A stretch of DNA of 64,000 nucleotides from Jiangella endophytica (GTDB lineage: Bacteria; Actinomycetota; Actinomycetes; Jiangellales; Jiangellaceae): the NCBI RefSeq assembly GCF_003427025.1, contig NZ_QVAI01000002.1:496001-560000 (forward strand), written 5' to 3'. The notes below the pieces were generated by a model. That model was not told the origin of the DNA. It saw only the letters and a list, made by a program, of their open reading frames with translations, and made no database searches. Below are positions 4,484 to 10,976 of the stretch, piece after piece (positions within the stretch are counted from its first letter, which is position 1; every line of letters starts with the position of its first letter). The position numbers and the translations under genes were made by a program.

Positions 4484-4936
4484 TCAGACGGCGGGGTTCC
4501 ACGGGCCGACGACGGCGTGCACCGTCACCCGGCCGGGTTCGGAGCGCACTCGCCACTCGCGGGCGATGGCGTCGACGATGGACAGGCCGCGGCCTTGGTC
4601 CTCGGTGGACGTGGGCTGGCGCACCCGCGGGCGCTCGGAGCCGCCGCCGTCGCTGACCTCGATGAGGACGTCGTCGCCGAGGACCGCCCACTGCAGCACG
4701 ACCCCGGTGCGGGTGCCGCTGAGCGACAGCGGCTGCGCGTGCAGGATGGCGTTGGTGACCAGTTCGGTGACCACGACGAGTGCGTTCTCGATGACCGTGG
4801 GCGAGACGTTGGTGTTGCGGAGATCCTCCGCGACCAGATGGCGAGCGTGTGGGACGTTGCTGACCTCACCGGTCAGCTCGACGGCGCGTGCGCTGTTGGA
4901 TCGGGCCTCACGCCTCGTGGCCACGACTCGACCCAC
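4484..4936 (-). CDS. RsbW-like ATP-binding protein (anti-sigma-factor type HATPase)
   Basis: A GHKL-fold ATPase of about 150 residues. The N-box ENALVVVTELVTNAILHA, the G1 box LIEVSDGGG and the G2 box GRGLSIVDAIA are all present and there is no sensor or dimerisation domain, as in RsbW/SpoIIAB regulators or stand-alone HATPase_c_2 proteins. I chose the GTG at 4936 because GGGAG stands 8 nt upstream. A longer form from GTG 4993 is possible and adds 19 residues without family similarity. No sigma factor or STAS-domain partner is adjacent, so its target is unknown. Confidence 0.8.
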   Translation of the reverse strand: MGRVVATRREARSNSARAVELTGEVSNVPHARHLVAEDLRNTNVSPTVIENALVVVTELVTNAILHAQPLSLSGTRTGVVLQWAVLGDDVLIEVSDGGGSERPRVRQPTSTEDQGRGLSIVDAIAREWRVRSEPGRVTVHAVVGPWNPAV

Positions 4937-5275: not shown

Positions 5276-6730
5276 ATGACGATGTGGACTCACTCCCGGT
5301 CTTCGGGACAACGTGGGGCGGAAGGGGAGCGGACCGGGGGAGCGTCGGGCGACGCCATTGTCGACGCTACCGGTGCCGCCGTGCCCGGACGCGCCGACAC
5401 GCATGGCGGCGTGTCGTGGTTCGAACCCGGCGTTCCGCTGCCGCCGCTGCAGAACGGCGCGGCCACGGTTGCGGATACCGACGAGGCGAGTGACACTCTG
5501 TCGGGTCCGGCCGGTGAGGACACCCCGTCGCCCGACGGCGAGTCAGGGGCCGGTGCGGCAGCAGCAACCGAGGCAGAGCCGGAGCGAGCACTGGAACCTC
5601 AGCCAGTCAACAGCACGGGGCTCGACAGTGAGGCTCTGCGCCAGAGCATGGCCCTCGTCGAGGACCACCTCGACGCGATCGGTGCCGACTTCTACGCCCA
5701 GCTGTTCACCATCGCGCCCGAGTCACGCGACCTGTTCGGCGCCGGTATGGCGGTGCAGCGGTCGCGGCTGGTGGGCGCCCTGGTGCGCATCGTCGGCAAT
5801 GCCGACGACCGCGAGACCCTCGTGCCGTACCTCGAGGCGCTGGGCCGCGACCACCGCAAGTTCGGCGTCATCGACGAGCACTACGCCCCGGTCGGCACGG
5901 CGCTCGTGCTCGCCATCCGACGTGCGCTCGGCGACGATTGGACGCCGCGCTTCGAGTCGGCCTGGATCGAGGCCTACGACCGCATCGCGGCGGTCATGGT
6001 CGGCGCCGCCCGCCGCGACGCCGTCATCTCGCCGCCGTGGTGGGACGCCGAGGTCGTCTACCACCGGCGCATCCTCGACGATCTCGCGATCATGCAGGTC
6101 CGGCCGCATACGGACTATCCGTATCGGCCCGGCCAGTACGTCTACCTGACCACGCCGCGGCGGCCGAAGATCTGGCGTGCCTACTCCATGGCCTCCGCCC
6201 CGCGCGACGACGGCCTGCTCGAGTTCCACGTCCGCACCGTCGGCGCCGGCTGGGTCAGCAGCGCGCTGGTGTGGCGCACGGAGCCCGGCGACATCCTGCA
6301 CCTCGGCGCCCCGCAGGGGCACGACGTCGCGACACCGCGGTCCGAACACGACCTGCTCTGCATCACCGGCGGTACCGGCATCGCGCCGGTGCTGGCCACA
6401 CTGCAGGAACTCGAGCAGCGTCAGGACGGCCGGCGGGTGCACGTCTTCTATGCCGGCCGCGATCGCGACCACCTGTACGCGCTGCCGCACCTGGAGTCGA
6501 TCGGGGTCCGCTACCGGCGGCTGACCGTCGTGCCGGTGGTCTCGCCCGACGGGCCCACCGACCGCAGCCCCGACCTCATGGGCAACATCGTCTCCGCCTA
6601 CGGCGACTGGCGGAAGCACCGCGTCTACGTCGCCGGGCCCACCGGCATGGTGGCGACCAGTCTCGAGCGGCTGCGCGCGCAGGGCGTCCCCGACGAGCAG
6701 ATCGTCGTCGACGATTACGGTCTCTGGTGA
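5276..6730 (+). CDS. flavohemoglobin-like protein (globin + FAD/NAD reductase)
   Basis: A 484-residue three-part protein. Residues 1-115 are a low-complexity Ala/Gly/Asp-rich extension. Residues about 118-250 are a globin with proximal His193 in GRDHRKFGV. Residues about 255-360 are an FAD-binding domain (RPGQYVYLTTP, WRAYSMASAP) and 360-484 an NAD(P)-binding domain (CITGGTGIAPVL, VYVAGPTGMV). Proteins of this architecture reduce oxygen or detoxify nitric oxide at a flavin-supplied heme. GGAG lies before both an ATG at 5276 and one at 5282; either may start translation. No partner gene is adjacent. Confidence 0.9.
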   Translation: MTMWTHSRSSGQRGAEGERTGGASGDAIVDATGAAVPGRADTHGGVSWFEPGVPLPPLQNGAATVADTDEASDTLSGPAGEDTPSPDGESGAGAAAATEAEPERALEPQPVNSTGLDSEALRQSMALVEDHLDAIGADFYAQLFTIAPESRDLFGAGMAVQRSRLVGALVRIVGNADDRETLVPYLEALGRDHRKFGVIDEHYAPVGTALVLAIRRALGDDWTPRFESAWIEAYDRIAAVMVGAARRDAVISPPWWDAEVVYHRRILDDLAIMQVRPHTDYPYRPGQYVYLTTPRRPKIWRAYSMASAPRDDGLLEFHVRTVGAGWVSSALVWRTEPGDILHLGAPQGHDVATPRSEHDLLCITGGTGIAPVLATLQELEQRQDGRRVHVFYAGRDRDHLYALPHLESIGVRYRRLTVVPVVSPDGPTDRSPDLMGNIVSAYGDWRKHRVYVAGPTGMVATSLERLRAQGVPDEQIVVDDYGLW

Positions 6731-6732
6731 GG

Positions 6733-6760
6733 TCTAGCGTTCTCTAGTTCTCGCGCTAGA
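6733..6760. repeat. palindrome copy 1, TCTAGCG-N14-CGCTAGA
   Basis: Arms TCTAGCG (6733-6739) and CGCTAGA (6754-6760) are separated by exactly 14 nt. The same arms with the same 14-nt spacing recur on the other side of the AAA ATPase gene at 8003-8030. This copy lies in the 55-bp gap between the convergent globin and ATPase genes and is followed by TAGACGAC at 6767-6774, a string also present in copy 2. Confidence 0.7.
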
Positions 6761-6785
6761 CAGTCGTAGACGACCCGATGCACGG

Positions 6786-7982
6786 TCAGACGGCGGCGTG
6801 CTTGCGCAGGTAGATGCCGAAGTGCGGCACCGTGAACGCGATGGTGCCGCGCTCGGCGGAGTACACCAGCCCTTTCTTGATCAGCGAGTCGCGGGCCGGC
6901 GACAGCGACGACGGCTTGCGGCCGAGGTAGGTGGCGACGTCGGACGTGGGGACGACGCCGTGGGTGTGGTCGGAGAGCGCGGCCATGGCGCGCAGGTACT
7001 CGCGCTCGGCCGGCGTGGCCCGCTCGTAGCGCGAGCCGAAGAAGCCGACCGCCAGCTCGGCCTGGGCCTCCGGCGCGGCCATGCGGACGTCGTCGGCGCC
7101 GATCGGGTCGGTGGGCGCGTTGTCCCACGTGACCTTGCCGTAGGCCTGGACGAAGTACGGGTAGCCCTCGGTCGCCGCGTAGAGCGCGTCGAGGGCCGCC
7201 GGTTCGTACGTCACGCCCTCGTCCTCGGCCGGTGCGACCAGCGCGCGGTCGGCGGCCTCGCGGTCCAGCCGGTCGATGCGCACGTACCGGAACAGCCGCT
7301 CGGAGTAGGACTTCGACGCCGACAGGACGGCGGGCAGGTGCGGCAGTCCCGCGCCGACCACGACCAGCGGCAGCCCCTGCTGGGACAGTTCGTGGCAGGC
7401 CGCGCACAGCGCCGACACGTCCGGCGCGGGGATGTCCTGCATCTCGTCGACGAACAGCGCGATGCCCACCCCGACGTCGCGGGCCACTCCGGCCGCGTCG
7501 ACCAGCAGCTCGACGAGGTCGACCTCGATGTCGCCGGTGTCGGCGCGCCCCGTCGCCGCCGGCACGTCGATGCCCGGCTGCCAGCGGTCCCTCAGCTTGG
7601 CGTCGTCGCCGGCCGAGCGCAGCGCGAACGCCTTGAGCACGCCGAGGAAGCCGTCGACGCGGTCAGGGTCGCGGTGCCGCGGAGTCAGCTCGCGCACCGC
7701 CATGTGCAGCGCGCTGGCCAGCGGCCGGCGCAGCGACTGGTCGGGCCGCGCCTCGATCTTCCCGGTGCCCCACATGCGTCCGATCGCCTGCGACCGCAGT
7801 GCGTTCAGCAGCACCGTCTTGCCGACGCCGCGCAAGCCGGTGAGGACGAGCGAGCGCTCCGGCCGCCCCCGCGCGATCCGCTCCAGCACGACGTCGAACT
7901 GCTGCAGCTCGCGGTCGCGGCCGGCCAGCTCGGGCGGGCGCTGACCGGCGCCGGGAGCGTAGGGATTGCGCACCGGGTCCAT
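6786..7982 (-). CDS. AAA ATPase (Orc1/Cdc6-like ATP-binding protein)
   Basis: A 398-residue P-loop ATPase. Walker A is GLRGVGKT (near residue 50) and Walker B is ALFVDEMQDI (about 175). A sensor/arginine-finger region follows (LFRYVRIDRLDREAADRALV), then a C-terminal winged-helix-like segment (TSDVATYLGRKPSSLSPARDSLIKKGLV). Such proteins occur widely in actinobacteria as orphan ATPases; I know of no established function. The ATG at 7982 lies only 9 bp from an 18-bp inverted repeat, and both ends of the gene are bordered by the same palindrome, which may be an operator or an element boundary. Base composition matches the chromosome. Confidence 0.8.
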   Translation of the reverse strand: MDPVRNPYAPGAGQRPPELAGRDRELQQFDVVLERIARGRPERSLVLTGLRGVGKTVLLNALRSQAIGRMWGTGKIEARPDQSLRRPLASALHMAVRELTPRHRDPDRVDGFLGVLKAFALRSAGDDAKLRDRWQPGIDVPAATGRADTGDIEVDLVELLVDAAGVARDVGVGIALFVDEMQDIPAPDVSALCAACHELSQQGLPLVVVGAGLPHLPAVLSASKSYSERLFRYVRIDRLDREAADRALVAPAEDEGVTYEPAALDALYAATEGYPYFVQAYGKVTWDNAPTDPIGADDVRMAAPEAQAELAVGFFGSRYERATPAEREYLRAMAALSDHTHGVVPTSDVATYLGRKPSSLSPARDSLIKKGLVYSAERGTIAFTVPHFGIYLRKHAAV

Positions 7983-7991
7983 GATCGGACT

Positions 7992-8041
7992 CTATGGTGT
8001 CGTCTAGCGGGGGTCGTAGATTTCGCTAGACGACACCATAG
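7992..8041. repeat. 18-bp inverted repeat containing palindrome copy 2
   Basis: CTATGGTGTCGTCTAGCG (7992-8009) and CGCTAGACGACACCATAG (8024-8041) are perfect reverse complements around a 14-nt loop. The inner 7 bp of each arm give TCTAGCG-N14-CGCTAGA, identical in arms and spacing to copy 1. It lies between the YiaAB-like gene and the ATPase start codon on the same strand, so it could terminate the former, control the latter, or both. Confidence 0.75.
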
Positions 8042-8058
8042 GCGTGTCGCGAATCTGG

Positions 8059-8349
8059 TCAAACGGGCTCACGGAACGGATCGTGCTCGGCGATCAGCTT
8101 GTCGACCCGGGCCTGGTCCAGCCGCTTCACCAGCGCGGTGTCCTCCTGCTGGTCGCGGATGCACTTGGCCAGCGTGAACGCCGACGTCACGAGGTAGATG
8201 GTGCCGAGGCCGAGGAAGGCCCGCACCCAGGGGCCGATGTCGAGGTAGAGGATGCCGACGACGACCGTGACCAGCGCGATCGCGAACGATGCGATCGCCT
8301 GGACGTAGAACGCGGTGGTGTTCCTGGTGGAAGGCGGCGCGGTGGTCAT
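8059..8349 (-). CDS. YiaA/YiaB-type two-helix membrane protein
   Basis: A 96-residue small membrane protein. Two transmembrane helices are visible (TAFYVQAIASFAIALVTVVVGILYL and AFLGLGTIYLVTSAFTLAKCIRD) joined by a short turn, the layout of the YiaAB two-helix domain, with a charged cytosolic tail. Its role is unknown in any organism. ATG 8349 is the start that leaves the first helix intact. Two palindromes immediately upstream suggest regulated expression. Confidence 0.75.
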   Translation of the reverse strand: MTTAPPSTRNTTAFYVQAIASFAIALVTVVVGILYLDIGPWVRAFLGLGTIYLVTSAFTLAKCIRDQQEDTALVKRLDQARVDKLIAEHDPFREPV

Positions 8350-8383
8350 GTCAGCACTGCGCCGCTGCCATACCGGCCCGTCC

Positions 8384-8399
8384 TGAGCGCCGGCGCTCA
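8384..8399. promoter_or_regulatory. perfect 16-bp palindrome, probable operator
   Basis: TGAGCGCCGGCGCTCA is fully self-complementary with no loop, 35 bp upstream of the YiaAB-like start codon. It is 2 bp from a second palindrome. Confidence 0.55.
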
Positions 8400-8401
8400 A
8401 C

Positions 8402-8427
8402 CCGCCTGGGTACGCGTACTCAGGCGG
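8402..8427. promoter_or_regulatory. 26-bp palindrome (one mismatch) at the foreign-gene boundary
   Basis: Half-sites 8402-8413 (CCGCCTGGGTAC) and 8416-8427 (GTACTCAGGCGG) pair with a single mismatch around GC. It lies 42 bp beyond the stop codon of the AT-rich 801-residue gene and upstream of the YiaAB-like gene. It may be an operator for the latter or a terminator for the former. Confidence 0.5.
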
Positions 8428-8469
8428 ATTCTTGAGCATTGTGACGCCAAGAGATACCTCGCTCTCGGC

Positions 8470-10875
8470 TCAGCCGGCGCGAGACGTCGTGTGAGTGCCG
8501 GCTTCGAGCGGCGTGGCGAGCGATTCCGACTCGTTAGACCCAACCCTGCTTCCCGGTTGTGGGCGTCGCGGAAAGTACTGCCAGTACTCCTGAAACTCCG
8601 TCTCGAAGCCCTCCGAGAATCGCAACATCTCGTTCGGTGCCGCGAATAGAGCGCCGTGCACGAGATACTGCCTCCCCCTCAGGTCAGGCAACCCGAGCCA
8701 TTCATAGGAAGATGGCGAGGAAAACGAAATCGTCCTATCCCCAGAACGGAGCGTAGTGGTCGCATGTCCCCATCGGTCGACGCTGCTAGATGCCATAGAG
8801 AAGGTACTGCGAACACACCCGATTTTCTCGAGGCTGTCCAGCGCCTTCCGTGCTCTTGCGAGCAATTCAGTCACCTCGCCGATCGTGGGAACCCGCGTCT
8901 TGGCATGTAGCAGGCCGTTTCTCGCCGTCATAATCCCCGAGGCATTCAGGTCGCCCGCGACCTCGGAAAGCACTTCTATGAGTTGCACCTGGGACTCGGC
9001 AAGTAGGTCGAGGAATGGTTTGGTGTGTTGGAATGGAAACTTTTGCAACGAGGTCTTATCCGAGAACTTCGGTCGCTCGGCGCGATCGCGCACGTGTTGG
9101 GACTCTTCCTCACGCAACTTCTTTAGAAGCTTTGCGAGCCGACTAAACCCTTCGACGACCTGGCTCAGAACGGGTTCATCCGTTAATTCGCCAGTTGCTC
9201 CTTCGGGCATATCTCCGAGAGCGGTGATCGCAAATCGGCGCGCGGCCTGCGGGAGATATACATAAGGCTGATCGCTAGTGTAGTGATCATTCAAGAGTGC
9301 CCAGGCTGCGAAGACAAGGGAATCAAACAGGAATCGTTCTAAGCATACGAAATAGTCCGACGCGGCCGCTCGAAGGCCCTCGGCCGTTGCAGACAAATCT
9401 ACGTTTGCCGTTGTAGCAATGGCCTCAAGATCGTCATGGAGGCCCCAATACCTATCACGAAGATCGATTGTCTTAGGTAGGGGGAAGCCGAGTTTCCAGA
9501 GGATTCCATCACGGATATCGCTATCAGCCTGATGCACCGGCACGTTTAAGGCGGAGCATACGCGTATGGCGTTTGACCGCCTAGCAAAGATTAGAGCGTC
9601 TACCACCCGCGGTGGCTCCGCCGTCCTGAGAAATTCTTCCAACCTTCGGTACGGGGTGTCGCCGTCTACTTCGCGCAAGATCCAGGTGAGATCGTCCATA
9701 TCCTGTGCAGATTCAATATTGAAAAGCTCGCGTGCGTGCATCGAGAGGCGCAGCAATGGCAGGGCCGAGTCTGCCCCTACCTCCCGCATACCGAGGCGAC
9801 TCAATTGTGGGCGCAGATTCCAGGCCCCGGTCCTCGTGGAGGTGTTAACGCGTGGCCGACGAACCTCTCCGGCTGAGACGTTAATCACCGAATTGCGGAC
9901 GGCAGAGTCGACGATTTCCCGCAGGGTTGTATTATCCAGTAAGAATAACAGCTGAAGAAGTTGAGCCCGATCTAATGGTGCGGTGTAGTCCTCGGCTCGA
10001 CTCGAAAGCCCAAGCCTCCGTGCGGCCTGGGGGAGCGCTCCCCTAGACTCCTTCTCTGCATGACAAGTGAGAATTCTTAGCTCATTGTCACTGAACGCGT
10101 CCCCGAGGAGGTACGGGATTGTATTGCTACCGTCGAGTTCGTATGGGTTGCTTTCGCTGTCGATAATATCGGCAACAAAACCGCTCCACGCTGATGGTTC
10201 GGCACTTGTCTGATTCAGGACCTTATTCAGAGCTGGTCGAGATCGATTGACGCCGGCCTCAACGCTTGTGGATAGCTGGATTCGATGGACAGACTTACAG
10301 CTGCTGTCGGCGCAGTGCTGCAGCGGCGGAGCAGTGGTGGGATATAGGCTCCTGGAATGGTCACATCTGAACAGGCCGAATGGTCCCAGGACGTATCTTC
10401 CTGACTGAAACACGCCTTGGGGTGTCCCTTCAAGTAGTCGAATCGTGTCGTCGTGGCCGAGATACTCTCTTTCGTCAGGAAACAGCTCAGCAAAGCGGTC
10501 GTAGAGTTGACGGCCGAATCGAAGCGGGTATTTGAGTGAGCCAGCTCGTATCTCCTCAGAGATCGCATCGACTAGCCGCTCGATGTCGATCGCTTCGACA
10601 TCGACTAGCAGCTCTGCGTGTGCAAGCGCCAAGAAGGTTAGGACGTTTCCATCCTTGGCGTTAACGGATTCTTTCGTAGCCAGTTGAGAGCGTACTCGCT
10701 TACCTGCGGCGCTTAAGGCGATGGAATTATTGAGAGTTTCGGTGGGTTTGTACGCGCGCGTGATGATCGACTCGCGCAAAATGGTAACTATTGACAAAAG
10801 TTCAAGAAAGCGCTCACGCCAATCAGGGTCAGGAAACCTTTCGGAGAGCTCGGCGCGGTTGAGAGGTCGATCCAT
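8470..10875 (-). CDS. large protein of unknown family with HEPN-like R-x4-H motif; probably acquired
   Basis: An 801-residue protein I do not recognise. The coding strand is much richer in A+T than its neighbours and uses many codons that are rare in this window. It reads as mostly helical and soluble, with no signal peptide or clear transmembrane segment. Residues 171-197 hold a Cys/His cluster (C171, H173, H187, C188, C193, H197) that could bind zinc. Residues 652-657 read RNGLLH at the head of a long helix (TIGEVTELLARARKALDSLEKIG), matching the R-x4-6-H catalytic motif of HEPN ribonucleases. The ATG at 10875 has AGGGGG 5 nt upstream and was preferred to a TTG at 10899. No partner gene is obvious. 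A host-defence role is inference only. Confidence 0.7.
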   Translation of the reverse strand: MDRPLNRAELSERFPDPDWRERFLELLSIVTILRESIITRAYKPTETLNNSIALSAAGKRVRSQLATKESVNAKDGNVLTFLALAHAELLVDVEAIDIERLVDAISEEIRAGSLKYPLRFGRQLYDRFAELFPDEREYLGHDDTIRLLEGTPQGVFQSGRYVLGPFGLFRCDHSRSLYPTTAPPLQHCADSSCKSVHRIQLSTSVEAGVNRSRPALNKVLNQTSAEPSAWSGFVADIIDSESNPYELDGSNTIPYLLGDAFSDNELRILTCHAEKESRGALPQAARRLGLSSRAEDYTAPLDRAQLLQLLFLLDNTTLREIVDSAVRNSVINVSAGEVRRPRVNTSTRTGAWNLRPQLSRLGMREVGADSALPLLRLSMHARELFNIESAQDMDDLTWILREVDGDTPYRRLEEFLRTAEPPRVVDALIFARRSNAIRVCSALNVPVHQADSDIRDGILWKLGFPLPKTIDLRDRYWGLHDDLEAIATTANVDLSATAEGLRAAASDYFVCLERFLFDSLVFAAWALLNDHYTSDQPYVYLPQAARRFAITALGDMPEGATGELTDEPVLSQVVEGFSRLAKLLKKLREEESQHVRDRAERPKFSDKTSLQKFPFQHTKPFLDLLAESQVQLIEVLSEVAGDLNASGIMTARNGLLHAKTRVPTIGEVTELLARARKALDSLEKIGCVRSTFSMASSSVDRWGHATTTLRSGDRTISFSSPSSYEWLGLPDLRGRQYLVHGALFAAPNEMLRFSEGFETEFQEYWQYFPRRPQPGSRVGSNESESLATPLEAGTHTTSRAG

Positions 10876-10976
10876 CTTATACCCCCTGCATTCGACCAAT
10901 CTGGTCTATGCATCATGATCGATATCGATTAACATGTAAAGGGGCGTGTCGGGTCAGGGTCGAACCCGCACCGTTC

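Follow-up and report, generated by a model that had tools for sequence, protein, structure and literature searches.

Phased half-site arrays at the locus of an AAA+ ATPase gene in Jiangella and related actinobacteria: candidate autoregulatory operators of a protein with a predicted Orc1/Cdc6-like architecture

In Jiangella endophytica, a gene for a 398-residue AAA+ ATPase (positions 6786–7982, minus strand; Pfam AAA_16, E 2e-20) is bracketed by two copies of the palindrome TCTAGCG-N14-CGCTAGA, one just past its 3′ end and one just before its start. Positions refer throughout to the window, the 64-kb stretch of DNA that was analysed. The locus raises the question of what these copies do: the initial annotation proposed that the gene carries its own operator pair or that the whole is a small mobile or site-specifically inserted element.

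The palindromes flanking the ATPase gene

Both copies are exact (6733–6760 and 8003–8030), whereas the pattern did not occur in exact form in any of 100 dinucleotide shuffles of the window; with three mismatches allowed, the shuffles averaged 2.7 matches to the 7-bp-arm pattern. A search of the 7.85-Mb genome with up to one mismatch returned just the two copies beside the ATPase gene, but the reversed control pattern gave three matches, so that the genome count of the 7-bp-arm pattern taken alone discriminates poorly and is weak evidence. That the copies are not due to chance follows rather from their being exact, only 1.25 kb apart and conserved than from their rarity in the genome. Around the upstream copy the symmetry extends to a perfect 18-bp inverted repeat with a 14-nt loop (7992–8009/8024–8041), as had been noticed from the start; the repeat is imperfect in some Jiangella genomes. 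It had also been remarked that GGTG-nn-GTCTAGCG stands before both copies, and it does, but downstream the GGTGA belongs to the last codons of the neighbouring flavohaemoprotein gene (TGG TGA, Trp-stop; stop codon at 6728–6730), conserved as coding sequence in relatives too, and the likeness is therefore probably accidental.

Comparison of the flanks in relatives revealed that the actual unit is TCTA-N6-TCTA-N10-TAGA-N6-TAGA, 38 bp with four half-sites, one per turn of approximately 10 bp on each arm and with the arms mirrored; the 7-bp arms separated by N14 are a by-product of this larger unit. The four-half-site scheme accounts in part for the equal N14 spacing, rightly held to be no accident: in the downstream copy, offsets 1 and 11 carry TCTA and offsets 25 and 35 carry TAGA. 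The downstream array (TCTAGCGTTCTCTAGTTCTCGCGCTAGACAGTCGTAGA, 6733–6770) lies between convergent 3′ ends and agrees with the pattern at 16/16 half-site bases. The promoter array (7993–8030, minus strand) agrees at 14/16 and, read toward the gene, consists of TCTA-N6-TCTA-N10-TAGA followed by a degenerate fourth half-site, CATA. With up to three mismatches, the 38-bp site was found at two places in the genome, both at the ATPase gene, and its reversed control likewise at two places. An earlier tally of relatives lacking sites, made by counting the literal TCTAGCG-N14-CGCTAGA, was dropped once the flanks had revealed the four-half-site scheme. Relatives with the gene and neither palindrome, which the initial annotation had named as telling against its proposal, thus exist when the 7-bp arms are taken literally, but not when the half-site array is counted.

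Promoter and neighbours of the ATPase gene

The outer half-site of the promoter array runs into a −10-like hexamer, TAGAGT (7989–7994, minus strand), a putative −10 element that ends 6 nt before the start codon and shares its first two bases with the end of the array. A TANNNT sequence ends 6–8 nt before the start codon in all of the 80 named loci described below, and the ATPase mRNA is likely leaderless, judging from this spacing. An alternative promoter would be a sigma-70-like TTGACC/TATGGT pair at 8062–8035. Upstream of the array there is a GACACGC box (8042–8048, minus strand), which is seen across the named loci (within 90 nt upstream of the gene in 73 of the 80, and at −66/−67 in 71 of those) and is perhaps the −35 region or the site of another protein.

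The ATPase gene is alone between the two arrays of the window. Its convergent neighbour encodes a flavohaemoprotein (5276–6730, plus strand; globin, FAD and NAD domains by Pfam), with the stop codon 2 nt from the downstream array, and all 12 Jiangella genomes have it at most about 3 kb away from the ATPase gene. The upstream neighbour, a YiaA/B family gene (8059–8439, minus strand; Pfam), is inconstant, with a match in six of the 12, two of them partial. An 809-aa ORF (8470–10899) lies where the G+C content falls to about 55%, the flanks being above 70%; it had no match in Pfam, NCBIfam or PADLOC and looks like a recently acquired gene.

Conservation of the arrays in actinobacteria

Each of the 12 Jiangella genomes contains one ATPase ortholog, the 11 others being 95–99% identical to that of the window (G011 has an extra, weak match, E 5.6e-4), and all 10 other genomes of the same family in our sample also contain one (79–91% identity; split into two matches in G020). 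We then compared 80 named loci from Jiangella, Blastococcus, Geodermatophilus, Modestobacter, Actinomadura, Streptosporangium, Nonomuraea and others, with ATPases 75–98% identical; these loci are related, so the counts that follow are not independent. A site over the inferred promoter of the gene and at a fixed place, as an autoregulatory operator should be, occurs in 79 of the 80 (at least 12/16 half-site bases; L100 has 11), spanning about −50 to −13 and beginning at −49/−50 in most. A further array with at least 13/16 is present in 72 loci, whereas no array of this quality was found in any of the 80 loci after triplet shuffling or in one dinucleotide shuffle per locus. Among the eight loci without a second array at 13/16, two (L038 and L059) end soon after the gene.

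The position of the further array varies among families. In Streptosporangiales there are often two or three, just downstream of the ATPase gene and 64–68 bp apart, and in Geodermatophilaceae the further array lies upstream, by the start of a divergent gene for a holin-family protein with four transmembrane segments. Further arrays are kept even with 0.5–2 kb of other DNA intervening. In five Jiangella genomes the downstream array lies 0.5–3 kb off, beside the flavohaemoprotein gene and with 16/16, with other genes in between. Over 13 downstream sites from the 12 Jiangella genomes, the half-site columns are invariant in 16/16 cases vs. 2/22 for the spacer columns; these sites were selected by pattern, yet none of the 12 genomes lacks one. 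In one Jiangella genome (G005; L160, 47–700), a gene for an AbiEi-type antitoxin lies between the ATPase gene and the downstream array. In Phytoactinopolyspora limicola (L037), another long inverted repeat (CATGAACACTTTGCCGTGTC...), unlike the half-site arrays, flanks the ATPase gene on both sides (approximately 4880–4930 and 6220–6280).

Restriction of the arrays to the ATPase locus

The 38-bp site was searched for, with up to two mismatches, in 35 genomes, 31 of which carry the ATPase gene and 25 of which have a match. The ATPase gene is no more than about 3 kb away from 52 of the 55 places retrieved and no more than 8 kb from the other three (in G018, G334 and G271); with the reversed control, three of the 35 genomes had a single match each. 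No site was found at this threshold in any of the four genomes without a detected ATPase gene (G023, G024, G039 and G143), nor in six that bear it (G033, G314, G098, G086, G121 and G175). The suggestion that the gene carries its own operator pair is thus borne out as an inference, with sites only at or near the gene, one at the promoter in 79 of the 80 named loci and a further one in 72, and the four genomes with neither a detected gene nor a site fit it as well.

The linked extra sites, 5–8 kb from the gene, have no target gene in common. One array is near a large ORF (L270, 10133–10170), another near a DEAD-box-helicase-like gene (L268, 9200–9237) and the third near a kinase-like gene (L269, 3382–3419), the last two as judged by eye from their translations; each is a possible extra target.

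Phasing upstream of distant homologs

Distant homologs of the ATPase, with about 25–48% identity, were found on plasmids, on viral contigs, on scattered chromosomes and in other phyla. Matches occurred in 118 of 72,556 plasmid records (two, at about 75%, on records as large as 2.7 and 11.9 Mb), in 38 loci from viral collections, in one of 50,697 phage records (at 72%) and in 33 of the 296 genomes sampled from the phylum. On the Rhodococcus opacus plasmid pROB01 (L118, 1–6173) the homolog and a TnsA/integrase/TniB/TniQ-type transposition cluster are divergently oriented; on a plasmid of Mycobacterium gordonae (L116, 1–2205) an AAA_5 gene and a McrBC-type restriction gene form a pair about 3 kb upstream of the homolog; and on two Clavibacter plasmids (L117, 3593–6170; L274, 3624–6170) it follows a small ATPase gene and a short gene, in the manner of a partition pair.

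Many promoters of the distant homologs use other words, such as CTTA/TAAG, TTTA/TAAA or CTA/TAG, with the spacing unchanged. A palindrome search with 25 viral homologs exceeded their own shuffles in seven cases, two of them identical, and was replaced by an autocorrelation test because arrays can be direct repeats, as in L171. The test counts identical 4-mers at a fixed lag against dinucleotide shuffles and was applied to the fetched distant homologs with 100 bp of upstream sequence, 57 regions that became 41 after dereplication; L180, with no upstream sequence, and L207, a fragment, were left out, and from the phylum sample it covers only fetched places (20 of 41, 13 of them distant). In the 41 promoters there were 100 repeats at lag 10 vs. 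17.5 expected (z 16.1; reached in 0/300 shuffles), 52 at lag 20 vs. 15.5 (z 7.7) and 41 at lag 9 vs. 17.8 (z 4.2). The control stretch from −300 to −201 showed no excess at lags 10, 11 and 20, and an excess at lag 9 (z 3.4), and 80 regions upstream of other genes in those loci gave z values of 1.6, 3.6 and 0 at lags 10, 9 and 20. Two or more lag-10 repeats were present in 25 of the 41 homologs; the other 16 had fewer, ten of these none. Earlier runs without the most distant viral homologs (36 homologs; 31 kept of 35) had the same outcome. Phasing by 10 bp is thus family-wide, while the word changes.

The type of half-site correlates with the recognition helix of the homolog: nine homologs with an S[VL]APxR helix are richer in CTTA/TAAG than 22 others (Mann–Whitney P 4.5e-4, a value that ignores kinship among the homologs). 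The pattern as first defined, without L126 and L179, gave P 2.5e-4, with P 0.34 in its control stretch.

Predicted fold of the ATPase

The ATPase comprises an AAA_16 domain, a lid and a C-terminal winged helix (approximately residues 318–398, from the predicted model). The model built from 41 sequences reached a pLDDT of 90.7 and a pTM of 0.88, as against a pLDDT of 73.5 for an earlier one from 26 close sequences. The top four Foldseek matches include archaeal Cdc6/Orc1 proteins (1fnn, 2v1u, 2qby), followed by many RuvB chains. A second structural aligner retrieved 2qen (Z 23.6, 322 residues, rmsd 4.7), 2fna (Z 22.1, 325 residues, rmsd 4.5) and Aeropyrum Orc2 1w5t (Z 20.5, 340 residues, rmsd 6.3), with NLR/apoptosome, TnsC and ORC chains ranking lower, at Z values of about 18 and less. 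We therefore predict an AAA+/winged-helix protein with an Orc1/Cdc6-like architecture (AAA+, lid and C-terminal winged helix), matched over nearly the full length but in an unspecific way, since 2qen, 2fna, NLR, apoptosome, TnsC and RuvB proteins match too. There was no family-level match to Orc1/Cdc6 in sequence, with TIGR02928 scoring 19.5 bits against a cut-off of 181.3, and scans against PADLOC and PHROG gave only weak matches or matches of unknown function. The family has no curated name in the libraries scanned.

Autoregulation and its alternatives

We consider it probable, at roughly 0.65, that the arrays are phased operators of the ATPase encoded between them, through which the protein would bind its own locus cooperatively and repress its own gene, the second array being auxiliary. 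The winged helix of each protomer would read one half-site (TCTA in the Jiangella lineage) per helical turn, and two protomers per arm, with the arms facing each other, would form a tetramer-like complex on the 38 bp. Because the promoter array meets the −10-like hexamer before the start codon, binding there, from −50 to −13, should block transcription and so shut off the ATPase gene. The ATP/ADP state probably tunes assembly of the complex, and the second array, upstream or downstream and up to about 3 kb off, may act by looping or as a local reservoir. Members of the family would thus label their own promoters by a simple rule, a half-site at every turn and usually a mirrored order; from promoter phasing the DNA word of each member could be predicted, and the array offers a cheap test of sequence-specific multimer formation on DNA by an Orc-like ATPase. 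Autoregulation alone leaves the job of the ATPase in the cell unexplained, and the retention of a second array at a variable distance calls for looping or for a role beyond repression.

The binder is assigned to the ATPase through locus restriction, phasing and the helix correlation, and the arrays could instead be operators of another DNA-binding protein that controls the ATPase gene; this is decidedly unlikely, as such a regulator would need targets at this single locus in each genome and would also have to accompany the gene on plasmids and viral contigs, with the word changing and the phasing constant. Inverted similar sequences around one gene, with homologs on plasmids and viral contigs, could also be the ends of a mobile or site-specifically inserted unit, the other proposal of the initial annotation. 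We regard this as extremely improbable: neighbours are constant within each family and differ between families, there is no transposase between the arrays of the window, and it is other genes that enter next to or within the unit, not the unit that moves. Location did not vary among the 12 Jiangella genomes as that of a transposon does among close relatives, each having a single ortholog with the flavohaemoprotein gene nearby. Movement of the gene within Jiangella, considered on account of differing downstream flanks, was discarded for the same constancy, five of the genomes having intervening genes. Very improbable, too, are RNA hairpins, terminating transcription in both directions at the downstream copy and forming a leader hairpin at the upstream one. 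They would agree with the downstream copy lying between convergent genes, with the long perfect arms of the promoter copy in the window and of the downstream sites in Streptosporangiales, and with the complementarity of the N6 spacers in 422 of 804 positions over 134 sites; but the N6 spacers of the Jiangella downstream sites pair in only 25 of 78 positions (28% expected from composition) while the sequence of their half-sites does not vary, neither a terminator-like site nor an Rfam match was found, and the promoter array precedes the probable start of transcription.

A different question is whether the same binder has as its main job a nucleoprotein platform of the replicon (centromere- or origin-like, or for replication control), autoregulation being a side effect as in plasmid partition loci. 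The predicted Orc1/Cdc6-like fold, arrays on both sides of the gene and the retention of sites at a distance from it would suit such a platform, which we hold to be unlikely. The gene lies 42–273 kb from dnaA in all of the 37 genomes with both on one contig (137 kb in the genome of the window; they are on different contigs in four genomes), but in draft genomes the requirement of a shared contig biases the sample towards short distances. In a synteny control with three closed genomes, origin regions of about 400 kb shared 42–53 reciprocal best pairs per pair of genomes, of which many, with the ATPase gene included, keep a similar distance; proximity may therefore be plain vertical inheritance, and we have toned it down as functional evidence. 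In some actinobacterial lineages the ATPase is 75–77% identical between families, placing it among the top three of 46 and of 53 origin-region pairs. We also inspected nine annotated plasmid regions for rep and par neighbours within 5 kb. The small ATPase and short genes just upstream of the homolog on the two Clavibacter plasmids (the ATPase being ParA/MinD-like by Pfam in L117, and an 'AAA family ATPase' of equal length in L274), together with a replication initiation gene about 2.6 kb from the homolog on one plasmid, speak for a replicon role; against it, the other six regions contain no rep/par annotation within this distance, and only 33 of the 296 sampled genomes of the phylum match the ATPase. 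That an Orc-like filament or ring, with one subunit per turn on the origin-near mirrored arrays to both sides of the gene, itself serves the replicon besides repressing the gene, as an anchor, a dosage sensor or a replication control, with the plasmid and prophage homologs as its mobile form, seems to us quite unlikely.

Comparison with known systems

We found no description of these arrays or of this ATPase family in the PMC literature, outside of which most subscription journals lie, and comparisons were made with systems that share some of their features. Archaeal Orc1/Cdc6 proteins (2v1u, 2qby, 1w5t, 1fnn) share the AAA+ domain, the helical lid, the C-terminal winged helix and a length of about 370–400 residues, but are only 12–17% identical to the ATPase, which has half-sites every 10 bp over its promoter and a bacterial host with DnaA; the likeness to these initiators is one of predicted fold. 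Archaeal orc1/cdc6 genes often adjoin their repeated sites. The best full-length structural matches, the archaeal AAA+/winged-helix ATPases 2qen and 2fna (SSO1545), are 15–18% identical.

MalT and IniR likewise join an SSO1545-like ATPase to a DNA-binding domain; IniR differs in its 818 residues, its MalT-like middle domain, its SdiA-like DNA-binding domain and its action on iniBAC (PMC5760070). BREX ATPases of the BrxC type also have an ORC/Cdc6-clade ATPase followed by a winged helix, but with more domains past it and as part of a defence operon (PMC12839542). No BREX model was among the PADLOC matches for the ATPase loci.

In plasmid pB171, parC1 and parC2 are made of 10-bp repeats and are placed flanking the par2 locus. 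The loci are alike in that short-repeat arrays flank an NTPase locus that regulates itself, par2 containing parC1 and parC2 (PMC4270457); they differ in that par2 has two proteins, ParA and ParB, and demonstrated partition, neither of which holds for the ATPase locus. A constant pair of genes for an NTPase and a centromere-binding protein, typical of par2, was not seen here, as the chromosomal neighbours vary by family.

The arrangement of half-sites resembles that of the winged-helix proteins BldC and RdfS, whose repeats about one helical turn apart hold cooperative multimers at promoters: BldC multimerises on DNA (PMC5859096), RdfS occupies about 10 bp per molecule and BldC molecules are one turn apart (PMC11963761). 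These proteins are small (68 residues in BldC), with neither an ATPase nor mirrored arrays in the descriptions cited, and BldC controls a regulon, whereas the arrays of the ATPase sit at its own locus. Half-sites one turn apart, a feature of such systems, are also those of the ATPase family (z 16.1 at lag 10 and 7.7 at lag 20).
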